Assembly (NCBI GenBank): GCA_030651135.1
Contig: JAUSCS010000006.1
Span: forward strand, 442,851-506,850
Length of the DNA: 64,000 nt
Reading direction: 5' to 3'
Source of the DNA: Candidatus Woesearchaeota archaeon
Lineage (GTDB): Archaea; Nanobdellota; Nanobdellia; Woesearchaeales; JACPBO01
Part shown: positions 2,672 through 64,000 of the stretch, piece by piece
Layout: each line of letters starts with the position of its first letter
Numbering within the stretch: the first letter of the stretch is position 1
Made by a program: the position numbers and the translations under genes
The notes under the pieces: generated by a model
Seen by the model: the letters and a program-made list of their open reading frames with translations, nothing else
Databases searched by the model: none
What the model was told of the DNA's origin: nothing

Positions 2672-2811
2672 ATGTCAAAAATTTCATACTAAACTGATAG
2701 CTGAAAATAACCACATTTCGGCTTGTGGAAATTTTTGAGCATGCTCAAAAACCACCTGATGACAGAAATGGAAGCAAAAATACCATGTATATGACTGGGT
2801 GGTTTTTGACA
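2672..2811 (+). mobile_element. MITE-like repeat, copy A
   Basis: This 140-bp element begins ATGTCAAAAA and ends TTTTTGACAG, giving terminal inverted repeats with one mismatch. Internally it holds AGCTGAAA, GGAAATTTTTGAGCATGCTCAAAA split around the palindrome GAGCATGCTC, then AACCACCTGATG and a final GGGTGGTTTTTGACA. The same blocks in the same order occur at 28468, 35743 (inverted) and 63799. It contains no ORF. It lies between the TctA-like gene and the L35Ae promoter. Confidence 0.75.
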
Positions 2812-2817
2812 GAAAGC

Positions 2818-19273: not shown

Positions 19274-20263
19274 TCACAGCTTTAACAGCCCAGCAACCTC
19301 TCCGGCAGCATATCCAAAATGCTCTAGAACAAACGCCAAAAAAACATGAAAGGTCAGGTTAATTCTGCCTTTTTTAAGGCAAAGATAAAAGCTGTACAAA
19401 AAAATAAGCGGGAAATAAAGCAAAGGAATTAAAAATAATCCATTTAAAAACCCAAAAAGACTTGCGAGCATTACAGCAATAAAACTTATCGGCAGCAAAT
19501 AAATGAGCTTGAATTCTTTCAGCCTTTTCATCAAAAAGATCCTGCCCTTTCCATAATCATACATGTTCTTCAAAAATTTCATAGGCGTGCTTCTCAGCTT
19601 GTGCCATACAAAGCTGTTCGGCAATACAGCGATCTTATACCCTCTTTTTCTTAATTTAAAATTAACATCATAGTCTTCGCACATATTCCTCAATGCTTCA
19701 TCAAAGCCGCCAACTTCTAGCAATAGTTTTTTGCTGTGCAGCACATTGCAGCAGGGCAGGCTCGGGACAAAAGTTATTTTGCTGAATGTTTTTGCCTGTG
19801 CGCTTCCCAAAGACCCTAAAAAAGAATCAAAGGCAATTCCAGCAGCAGCCATGAAGTTCGGCGCATTTTCAGGCGGAATATTTGCTCCGCCAACAGCAGC
19901 AATATTTTTTCCTTTCAGCTTTTCATAACCATCAACTAGAATTTTAAGCCAATCTTTTGGAACAGTGCAGTCTGCATCTGTAAACGCAACAAGATCATAA
20001 GCCGCATTTCTCACACCAGCATTTCTGGATGAAGCAATAAACCTTTTTGGATTATTTATCAATCTGATTTTTATTTTATTTTCATGCCTTTCGATAAAAT
20101 CCTTAACAATCTCCTTTGTTTTATCAGCCGAATTTCCATCAATAACTAAAATTTCATAATCTTTTTTATTATAATTAAGATTAACAAGAGAATTCAGGCA
20201 GTCTGCGATAGTTCTTTCCTCATTGTATGTTACAACAATTATGCTTGCTTTCAAAACAGCCAC
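19274..20263 (-). CDS. GT2 glycosyltransferase with C-terminal membrane helices
   Basis: This 329-residue protein has a GT-A fold: SIIVVTYNEERTIADCL at the start, ILVIDGNSADKT, a T-D-A-D metal site near residue 96 and an acceptor-side MCEDYDVNFKLRKRGY. About two or three membrane helices occupy 245-295. It would transfer a sugar from a nucleotide donor onto a lipid-linked glycan at the inner face. It is the last gene of a five-gene minus-strand run and overlaps the preceding membrane gene by 13 bases. Confidence 0.85.
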   Translation of the reverse strand: MAVLKASIIVVTYNEERTIADCLNSLVNLNYNKKDYEILVIDGNSADKTKEIVKDFIERHENKIKIRLINNPKRFIASSRNAGVRNAAYDLVAFTDADCTVPKDWLKILVDGYEKLKGKNIAAVGGANIPPENAPNFMAAAGIAFDSFLGSLGSAQAKTFSKITFVPSLPCCNVLHSKKLLLEVGGFDEALRNMCEDYDVNFKLRKRGYKIAVLPNSFVWHKLRSTPMKFLKNMYDYGKGRIFLMKRLKEFKLIYLLPISFIAVMLASLFGFLNGLFLIPLLYFPLIFLYSFYLCLKKGRINLTFHVFLAFVLEHFGYAAGEVAGLLKL

Positions 20264-21516
20264 CCATAAACTTGGTTGAATCTTTTAAAGACCATCTGCA
20301 GCAAATCTTCCTTCAAAATAGACGCATCCTCAGGATAAAGCGAAGCCCCGAAATAAGAGAGCAGCGCATATATGATCAAGAACGCCACGATTATCAAATA
20401 AAAGTTTTTCAGTTTTAATTTTTTCGCAAGCTTTCTGCTTCCGTCATAAAGGCCGTAAGCTGCTAATGGAATAACAAAAGGAAACAGCATAAAGGCGTAT
20501 CTTGGGGAAAACAGGCCGACAACAACAAAAATGAAGATTATTGCTGTAAATTCAATCACGAAATTTTTAAGGTAAAAACCTCTTCTTTCTTTATCCTTGT
20601 CACTGAACAATCCAAAAACAAAAGGAATCCACAAAATATGGAATGTGATGAATGTCCTGAACCCAAACATCCACAATATCGTGCTAAAATTAAACTGGTA
20701 CTGGAGAAAAAAATTGATGTAATTCGGGTATTTGCTTGCTATATGGAGGCTCAATAATTTTCTCCACAAATAAGCCGGGAGAATGGAAATAAAAAATGCA
20801 GCAAGTATTTTCAGGATTTTATTGAAAATTGTCGGTTTAATACCTCGGACTTTAGTCCGACAATTTTCAATTCCGAAAATCGCACGACAAAAATCCCAGA
20901 CTTTAATCTGCGGATTAGTGCGATTTTCGTTATTTGCTTTTTTAACAAAAGAAAAGCCATCTTTAAATAAAATGCTTAAAATAAAATAAACCGGAAGAAT
21001 ATAGTTATGGTCCTTTGCCAATATCGCCAGAGCCATAACAATCCCAATCACAGCATAATCAATAACTCTGCCTTTTTTCAAGCACCATTCTATCACAGCA
21101 ATCCCCAAAAACAAAAAGAAAAACCCAGCTGTTTCAATCAAAGGCCTTCCGCCCCATGCAATCAGCGGCAAAGAGGTTGCAAAGATTATTGCAGAGATGA
21201 ATCCTATATGTTTATTCTTGAAAAAATCCTTGAAAAAAACATAAGCAAGAATTGAGCTTAAGCAATAGAATAAGATGCTCAGCAAAGAATAAGTTATGGA
21301 CATCCCAAAGATCGGCTCGAGAGCAGCAGCAATCAAAGGGACAAGCATCCTTGATGCCCATGGCGAATCAATCACAGCATCTTTGCCCTGCATGAATCTT
21401 GTCGTGTCAAAATAATGGTCAGAATCAGCCAATGGCTGGTTGAAATATATTAAAGACCCGATAACACTCAAAACAATCAAAACAGCATAAATCAGATAAT
21501 CTTTGTTTTTGTTCAT
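20251..21516 (-). CDS. Multi-pass GT-C-like membrane protein containing an in-frame palindromic insert
   Basis: This 421-residue protein has 9-11 membrane helices. It has an early extracytoplasmic loop with acidic/His residues (DSDHYFDTTRFM) and WASRMLVPLIAAAL, as in polyprenyl-sugar-dependent GT-C transferases. The hydrophilic segment at about residues 195-235 (NENRTNPQIKVWDFCRAIFG onward) is encoded by a 108-bp double palindrome (20822-20929) and looks like an insertion between helices. The start overlaps the upstream GT2 gene by ATGA. The exact sugar donor is unknown. Confidence 0.65.
   Translation of the reverse strand: MNKNKDYLIYAVLIVLSVIGSLIYFNQPLADSDHYFDTTRFMQGKDAVIDSPWASRMLVPLIAAALEPIFGMSITYSLLSILFYCLSSILAYVFFKDFFKNKHIGFISAIIFATSLPLIAWGGRPLIETAGFFFLFLGIAVIEWCLKKGRVIDYAVIGIVMALAILAKDHNYILPVYFILSILFKDGFSFVKKANNENRTNPQIKVWDFCRAIFGIENCRTKVRGIKPTIFNKILKILAAFFISILPAYLWRKLLSLHIASKYPNYINFFLQYQFNFSTILWMFGFRTFITFHILWIPFVFGLFSDKDKERRGFYLKNFVIEFTAIIFIFVVVGLFSPRYAFMLFPFVIPLAAYGLYDGSRKLAKKLKLKNFYLIIVAFLIIYALLSYFGASLYPEDASILKEDLLQMVFKRFNQVYGWLF
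20822..20929. repeat. Double palindromic element inside a coding sequence
   Basis: There are two consecutive perfect inverted repeats. TTGAAAATTGTCGG at 20822-20835 pairs with 20857-20870 (14 bp), and CGAAAATCGCAC at 20874-20885 pairs with 20918-20929 (12 bp). The first encloses a smaller CGGAC-TTTA-GTCCG hairpin. The span is 108 bases, a multiple of three. It keeps the reading frame of the 421-aa membrane protein open. Confidence 0.75.
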
Positions 21517-28502: not shown

Positions 28503-28616
28503 CTGAAAGCCAATCCATTTTCGGCATATGGAAAATTTTTGAGCATGCTCAAAAACCACCTGATGTGGTGAACAATAGCAATATGCCACCCATCTATGGT
28601 GAGTGGTTTTTGACAT
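28468..28616 (+). mobile_element. MITE-like repeat, copy B
   Basis: This is a 149-bp element with perfect 10-bp terminal inverted repeats ATGTCAAAAA / TTTTTGACAT. It holds the hairpin ACCAATC-TT-GGATTGGT, then AGCTGAAAGCC, the palindrome GAGCATGCTC, AACCACCTGATG, CCACCCATC and GTGGTTTTTGACA. It is the most regular of the four copies. Its left 35 bases are translated as the tail of the upstream gene. Confidence 0.8.
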
Positions 28617-28640
28617 ATCGCAAATTTAAGAAGCCGATAT

Positions 28641-35694: not shown

Positions 35695-35742
35695 GTTCCT
35701 ATGACCGCAAAAATTAACATTTTGGGTTTTTTAATTTCTCTA

Positions 35743-35937
35743 ATGTCAAAAACCACCCATCACAGATGGGTGGCATGTTGCTGCGATCCACCGAATCAGG
35801 TGGTTAATTGGAAATGTTCACATTTCCAATTTGCTCAAAAATGCAAACATTTTTGACATTTGAGCACACCAAAATTCCACATATTGATCTGTGGTTTACA
35901 GAGTAAACCACCATTCAGAGAATGGTGGAATTTTCAG
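35743..35937 (-). mobile_element. MITE-like repeat, copy C (inverted, expanded)
   Basis: Read on the minus strand, this copy ends with AACCACCTGATTCGGTGG, CCACCCATC-TGT-GATGGGTGG and TTTTTGACAT like the others, but its outer left end is degenerate (ACTGAAAATTCC). A double hairpin is inserted at the GAGCATGCTC/AACCACC junction: ATTGGAAATG-TTCA-CATTTCCAAT at 35807-35830 and TCAAAAATG-CAAA-CATTTTTGA at 35835-35856. The left half carries two more hairpins, CCACCATTC-TCT-GAATGGTGG and TTTAC-TCT-GTAAA. It is about 195 bp long. Confidence 0.75.
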
Positions 35938-63798: not shown

Positions 63799-63997
63799 AT
63801 GTCAAAAATTTTCCGCCAGTTAATTAAAAATCGAAGATTTTTAATTTGATCAGAAATATTTCACATTTCTGACATTTAACTGGTGGCTGAAAGCCAACTT
63901 TTTTCGCTTATGGAAAATTTTGAGCATGCTCAAGAACCACCTGATGCTGTCAATTGTAGCAACATTCCGCCCATCTTTGATGGGTGGTTCTTGACAT
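63799..63997 (+). mobile_element. MITE-like repeat, copy D (expanded)
   Basis: This is a 199-bp element with ends ATGTCAAAAA / TTCTTGACAT. It has the blocks GGCTGAAAGCC, the palindrome GAGCATGCTC, AACCACCTGATGCTG and CCCATC-TTT-GATGGG. Within its left hairpin (CCGCCAGTTAA at 63813-63823 with TTAACTGGTGG at 63876-63886) sits a double hairpin: TTAAAAATC-GAA-GATTTTTAA at 63824-63844 and TCAGAAAT..ATTTCTGA at 63850-63872. Confidence 0.78.
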
Positions 63998-64000
63998 ATA

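Follow-up and report, generated by a model that had tools for sequence, protein, structure and literature searches.

The window, by which we mean the whole stretch of 64,000 nucleotides of Candidatus Woesearchaeota DNA that was analysed, carries on its minus strand a gene for a polytopic membrane protein resembling glycosyltransferases, and a palindromic segment lies within its reading frame. The Pfam PMT_2 match to the host protein is weak, just over the cutoff. The features of the locus are as follows.

20251..21516, minus strand: host gene for a 421-aa polytopic membrane glycosyltransferase-like protein (PMT_2), its frame open through the insert.
20819..20822, plus strand: TTAT target at the left end, a single occurrence in the empty site.
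20821..20871, plus strand: left hairpin, with perfect 15-bp arms at 20821-20835 and 20857-20871.
20823..20933, plus strand: inserted element, 111 bp or 37 codons, delimited by the empty site in G001 and a covariance model match.
20839..20844, plus strand: conserved AATACC box directly 5' of the left inner hairpin, recognised in copy alignments.
20846..20859, plus strand: inner hairpin of the left module, CGGACTTTAGTCCG, with the loop TTTA (TTYA in most copies).
20872..20873, plus strand: 2-nt linker joining both hairpins, which holds nested insertions in some other copies.
20874..20929, plus strand: right hairpin, with perfect 12-bp arms at 20874-20885 and 20918-20929.
20897..20910, plus strand: inner hairpin of the right module, CAGACTTTAATCTG, a palindrome nested in the loop.
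20930..20933, plus strand: the element's own right-end TTAT.

The protein was compared with its orthologue in a same-genus relative, G001, the sole other genome of the genus in the comparison. The G001 protein has 384 aa, is 88% identical to the host protein and lacks the 37 codons, and the empty site there reads GGATTTTATT/TATTTTTTTAAC (the slash marks the junction). Since a distant outgroup homologue in G107 (33% identity) likewise has no insert, the segment in the glycosyltransferase gene is a gain and not a loss. The covariance model match for this copy (L001:1505-1619) corresponds to window positions 20819-20933; the boundaries may equivalently slide within TTAT, 20823-20933 being one placement. 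The element lies in plus orientation, left hairpin first, and the host gene is read from the opposite strand. In an AlphaFold model of the host protein (pLDDT 55), the insert forms a low-confidence stretch between helices. The source genome (G000) is reported to be 3% contaminated, and all the genomes compared are assemblies of probably uncultured organisms. An earlier, sequence-only reading had proposed an inserted element of 108 bases at this place; the insertion is borne out by the empty site and the outgroup, and the length is corrected to 111 bp. We conclude that the segment is very probably a copy of a non-autonomous mobile element inserted in frame in the glycosyltransferase gene.

Searches with blastn found six copies in the source genome, three in G001 and matches in 21 of 145 genomes of the order. 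The sequence-only reading had tied its case to homologues free of the inserted residues and to further copies elsewhere, and both exist. A covariance model built from 13 copies detected the family in 131 of 353 genomes of the order (37%), with ten candidates scored per genome, which makes the copy numbers lower bounds. In G153 there are about 35 copies, counting full, partial and composite ones, and G147 contains sets of identical copies, which indicate that the family was recently active. When 84,980 species genomes were scanned for the exact pattern, the conserved core was recovered from Woesearchaeota/Nanoarchaeota and from one contig labelled Cloacimonadota, and no match was found in the viral contigs scanned. 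The Cloacimonadota-labelled contig (L054, JAIPIH010000058.1) belongs to the metagenome series that also yielded a copy-bearing Woesearchaeota genome, and it may be mis-binned or reflect a transfer. Because the copies are related, counts are not independent and statistics on them are indicative only. In searches of the literature restricted to open-licence papers, no published description of the palindromic family was found, and the hairpin family is apparently undescribed before.

Four sites were found empty in one and filled in the other of G000 and G001, namely the glycosyltransferase gene, a site behind the 5S rRNA, L004 and L005. The 5S rRNA-side site (L007/L074) is clean at the base level: the empty form reads CCAAACTTTTTTTAT/TCTTTC (also given as TTTTTTTAT/TCTTTC) and the filled form TTTAT/TGAAAA...CGTTAT/TCTTTC (right end also given as TTTTCGTTAT/TCTTTC). 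The element is also absent from the L004 and L005 sites of G001, where the surrounding sequence has diverged somewhat. At L004 the copy is 113 bp long, not a multiple of three, and causes a frameshift close to where a membrane-protein gene begins (L004:1391-2371); an in-frame GTG within the element could serve there as a new start and give a new N-terminus. Given the empty/filled sites and the identical copies, the family is mobile at present or was until recently.

The sequence-only reading had described two perfect inverted repeats of 14 and 12 bp. Both are present and the right one has 12-bp arms as described, whereas the left arms extend to 15 bp, with the AT of the TTAT target included in the base of the stem. 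A box similar to AATACC, often AAATACC, also stands before the right-module inner hairpin in other copies; in this copy it reads AAAATCC. The insert region folds better than dinucleotide shuffles both as DNA (z = -6.5) and as coding-strand RNA (z = -6.9), and 0 of 200 shuffles were as good in either case. Across 13 aligned copies, 93.6% of the stem cells are paired and both sides have changed in 18 of 38 pairs, which 0 of 500 shuffles came close to, while controls with slid arms reached 31-50%. Among 109 distinct copies, at least 10 of 14 bp are paired in 106 left and 102 right hairpins; in shuffled sequence, the left arm usually reaches 7-9 at best. The stems of the family are therefore kept by compensatory change. 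The strand ending in TTAT has more G-T wobbles than A-C mismatches, 49:24 when distinct stems are counted (p = 0.005, with no correction for relatedness), a bias that speaks for folding of this strand in single-stranded form, whether as DNA or as RNA.

Most copies are flanked by TTAT on both sides, and about 11 copies of the G288/G285 subfamily have TTAC on both sides. Single copies have TCAT or GTAT on the left with TTAT on the right, and the combination of left CTAT and right TTAT recurs in G034 in four separate insertions. Because of the G034 copies, we take the right TTAT as part of the element and regard a 4-bp target duplication as unlikely; the same tetranucleotide on both sides of most copies leaves room for a short 3-bp duplication (TAT or TAC). 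The element is placed 3' of TTAT (TTAC in one subfamily) and terminates in the same tetranucleotide. The outer ends have only a short GAAAA-type match in common, without long or extended terminal inverted repeats, and the outermost bases differ among subfamilies (ATAAAATT, CTAAAATT and CAAAAA). At L147 (G288:C22:1194-1418), two head-to-tail copies have a common TTAC junction, as if one copy had gone into the end site of its neighbour.

A conventional MITE mobilised by a DDE transposase, having short YGAAAAY ends, a short duplication (TTAT or TAT/TAC) and merely incidental internal hairpins, would accommodate the GAAAA match and the equal end tetranucleotides of most copies, including the TTAC/TTAC subfamily. 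We consider this unlikely, since the stems co-vary whereas the outermost bases vary by subfamily, and since the left and right tetranucleotides are unequal in G034, L173, L182 and L204. In contrast to DDE-type MITEs, no long or extended inverted repeat joins the ends here; the search for a partner transposon was not exhaustive.

A Y1 transposase (PF01797) is present in 51 of 145 genomes, and the presence of Y1 and that of the element are associated across these genomes (26/52 vs 25/93, p = 0.007, uncorrected for phylogeny or assembly quality). Y1 loci were rejected as the autonomous partner because matching element ends were found at none of the 20 loci examined. The Y1 locus of G000, with one IS200-like transposase (G000:C6:161234-161614, L052), has a different end hairpin of its own, AATCCAGCTAAAGCTGGGGG. 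PF01797 was not detected in the copy-rich genomes G153 (99% complete), G288, G323 and G067, or in some others rich in copies. A search for an autonomous copy in G153 yielded only composites filled with small nested hairpins, with no gene between the halves. The moving enzyme need not be a PF01797 Y1 transposase.

Elements of the IS200/IS605 family insert 3' of a specific tetranucleotide and have end hairpins, no inverted repeats and no target duplication (PMC7290912). The empty glycosyltransferase and 5S sites show a similar insertion 3' of TTAT; unlike IS200/IS605, the element carries neither tnpA nor tnpB and its ends are absent from the Y1 loci examined. A further comparison is offered by the PATEs of Haloquadratum walsbyi, which lack terminal inverted repeats, have a palindrome near each end and show no convincing target duplication. 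PATEs are too short to hold a transposase, occur in many copies with many nested small repeats, and are mobile even though the Haloquadratum genome has few intact tnpA genes or none (PMC3119063). The family described here is likewise short and multi-copy, lacks terminal inverted repeats, has palindromes near both termini and nested repeats, and Y1 is missing from several of its copy-rich genomes. Neither the 20 Y1 loci nor G153 yielded an IS605-type transposon whose ends match, and for this reason we do not file the element as a strict IS605-derived PATE. It also differs in that its modules are covarying stems with inner hairpins, that it belongs to another archaeal phylum and that some copies lie in frame within genes.

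Each copy comprises two adjoining folded modules, one hairpin at the left end and one at the right, which together measure about 110 bp; inside each lie a box of the AATACC type and a small hairpin, CTTYAG. We propose that the element moves in the form of a folded single strand and that the enzyme cutting it would act in trans and recognise the hairpins and the TTAT site. Judged from the anatomy, movement as a single strand in the manner of IS200/IS605-derived palindrome-associated elements has, in our estimate, about an even chance of being correct.

Most copies are intergenic. A stop-free frame runs through the element with at least 30 codons on either side in 13 of the 141 copies examined, and four of these open reading frames are convincingly genes: the glycosyltransferase, a leucyl-tRNA synthetase (LeuRS) in G346, a 505-aa protein in G325 and the gene start at L004. 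Only 3 of the 141 (~2%) lie within a convincing long gene. The strongest in-gene case is the LeuRS, a 924-aa open frame in which the insert NNKNRTNLPSKDQDSNNAIFGIKNFELKSEISKTEIFN follows the conserved LSEEIYHMLG of the anticodon-binding region. This insert is missing in all three congeners (G054, G111 and G345), and its site is where alignments to most solved LeuRS structures end. In-frame incorporation, as the sequence-only reading had it for the glycosyltransferase, thus occurs in a second gene as well. The G325 protein is of unknown family and has the element in a long open frame; homologues of the 505-aa frame (L113) can be aligned as far as the last residue ahead of the element, beyond which a variable linker begins, and this is supportive of a clean insertion but not conclusive. 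A set of other candidates was set aside for want of gene support or because only an N-terminus overlapped (L150, L003, L028, L156, L161, L175, L194 and L025/L160). At the first of these (L150:1323-2129), a cyclophilin-type isomerase has a signal-peptide-like start, and a copy is found immediately upstream of that start and in frame with it.

The three copies in long genes have one element strand and one frame in common, for which a rough count gives a chance of ~0.004. This frame is the most hydrophilic of the commonly open ones (mean hydropathy -0.49 vs -0.02 to +0.28) and is not the one most often open, being open in 18 of 84 distinct elements. Of the 84 inserts, 44 have a length divisible by three, with 1 or 2 mod 3 common, and open frames are slightly more frequent in the elements than in shuffled interiors. 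Selection against disruptive inserts suffices to account for the pattern of strand, frame and hydrophilicity. Judging from the surviving cases, a copy would persist in a gene only if it is divisible by three in length and has a stop-free frame in register with that of the gene. The glycosyltransferase and LeuRS copies would then add a hydrophilic loop of about 37 residues, presumably tolerated by the protein.

The sequence-only reading had likened the segment to the palindromic elements of Rickettsia (RPEs), which are 105-146 bp long, are found in intergenic regions and in frame in conserved proteins whose function can persist (PMC2229807, PMC10969869), and are listed with 12-bp terminal inverted repeats, nearly half of the R. 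conorii copies being in ORFs. The likeness holds in that the repeat is palindromic, short (about 105-150 bp) and present in many copies, some of them in frame in genes such as those for the glycosyltransferase and LeuRS. It fails in the anatomy: two separate tandem hairpins whose ends do not pair together and a TTAT site set the element apart from RPEs as described, and bring it nearer to PATE-like elements. Nor are genes its typical home, given the small share of copies in long genes and lengths that are not uniformly multiples of three. The sequence-only reading knew of no archaeal counterpart, which is contradicted by the coding palindromic repeats in protein genes of Methanocaldococcus jannaschii (Suyama et al. 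2005) cited in PMC2229807; going by that description, they too are archaeal, palindromic, repetitive and fused into protein genes.

A Rickettsia-type coding element, maintained for an open frame suited to incorporation into proteins, would account for the three in-frame genes, their common strand and frame, the excess of open frames and the lengths divisible by three. We nevertheless find it distinctly improbable, as the excess is weak among related copies, few copies lie in long genes, the in-gene frame is seldom open, other lengths are common, and survival bias alone explains why the in-gene copies are open and hydrophilic. The best reading is an element that is PATE-like in build and occasionally tolerated in frame as RPEs are.

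The strong covariation, the one-strand excess of G-T over A-C and the copy immediately after the 5S rRNA would also suit a mobile structured RNA, such as a dispersed terminator, small RNA or regulatory leader, in which selection keeps the RNA structure. This is very unlikely: no Rfam family was matched at gathering score and permissive matches were all far below the cutoffs, the favoured structure strand is antisense to the gene in the in-gene copies, no conserved neighbour was seen, and presence or absence differs among congeners. An ancestral sequence deleted in the relative through its direct TTAT end repeats is virtually impossible, and refuted for the glycosyltransferase gene, because the outgroup homologue also lacks the segment, the LeuRS segment is missing from its congeners at a point where alignments to solved LeuRS mostly stop, and the same sequence occurs at unrelated sites.

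The PATE-like, occasionally tolerated element offers a comparable archaeal case in which mobile DNA joins protein-coding genes, including that of an essential tRNA synthetase, so that selfish DNA adds peptide-coding sequence to archaeal genes; congeners with empty sites make the effect of an insert testable. It is a common mobile family with a missing enzyme, in small DPANN-type genomes where selfish DNA has been little studied. A broader proposal, of archaeal single-strand-hairpin elements with an unrecognised non-PF01797 enzyme, growth of hairpins within hairpins and repeated donation of one hydrophilic peptide frame to essential proteins, is tentative and rather doubtful.

Smaller double-hairpin units of ~50-60 bp, with GTAC/GGACA-type joints, are nested in the loops and linker of the larger element (L017, L019, L020, L021, L023, L035, L229-L232, L236, L239-L241), and in G153 they form strings of hairpins. 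They resemble the SMR insertions nested in Haloquadratum PATEs. The other repeat family of the window (2729-2814, 28533-28618, 35719-35841 and 63899-63999) has different stems, as the sequence-only reading had held; it also looks like two adjoining hairpins, TTTTTGAGCATGCTCAAAAA and then CAAAAACCACC...GGTGGTTTTTG, and its core AGCATGCTCAAGAACCAC occurs in the distant G153 (L229, L234). At L069 (G001:C9, orthologous to the L002 site), G001 has another palindromic element, CCAGCCATGACG...CGTCATGGCTGG, with nested hairpins, and G000 has the studied element there, so that one intergenic stretch has received insertions of both palindromic elements.
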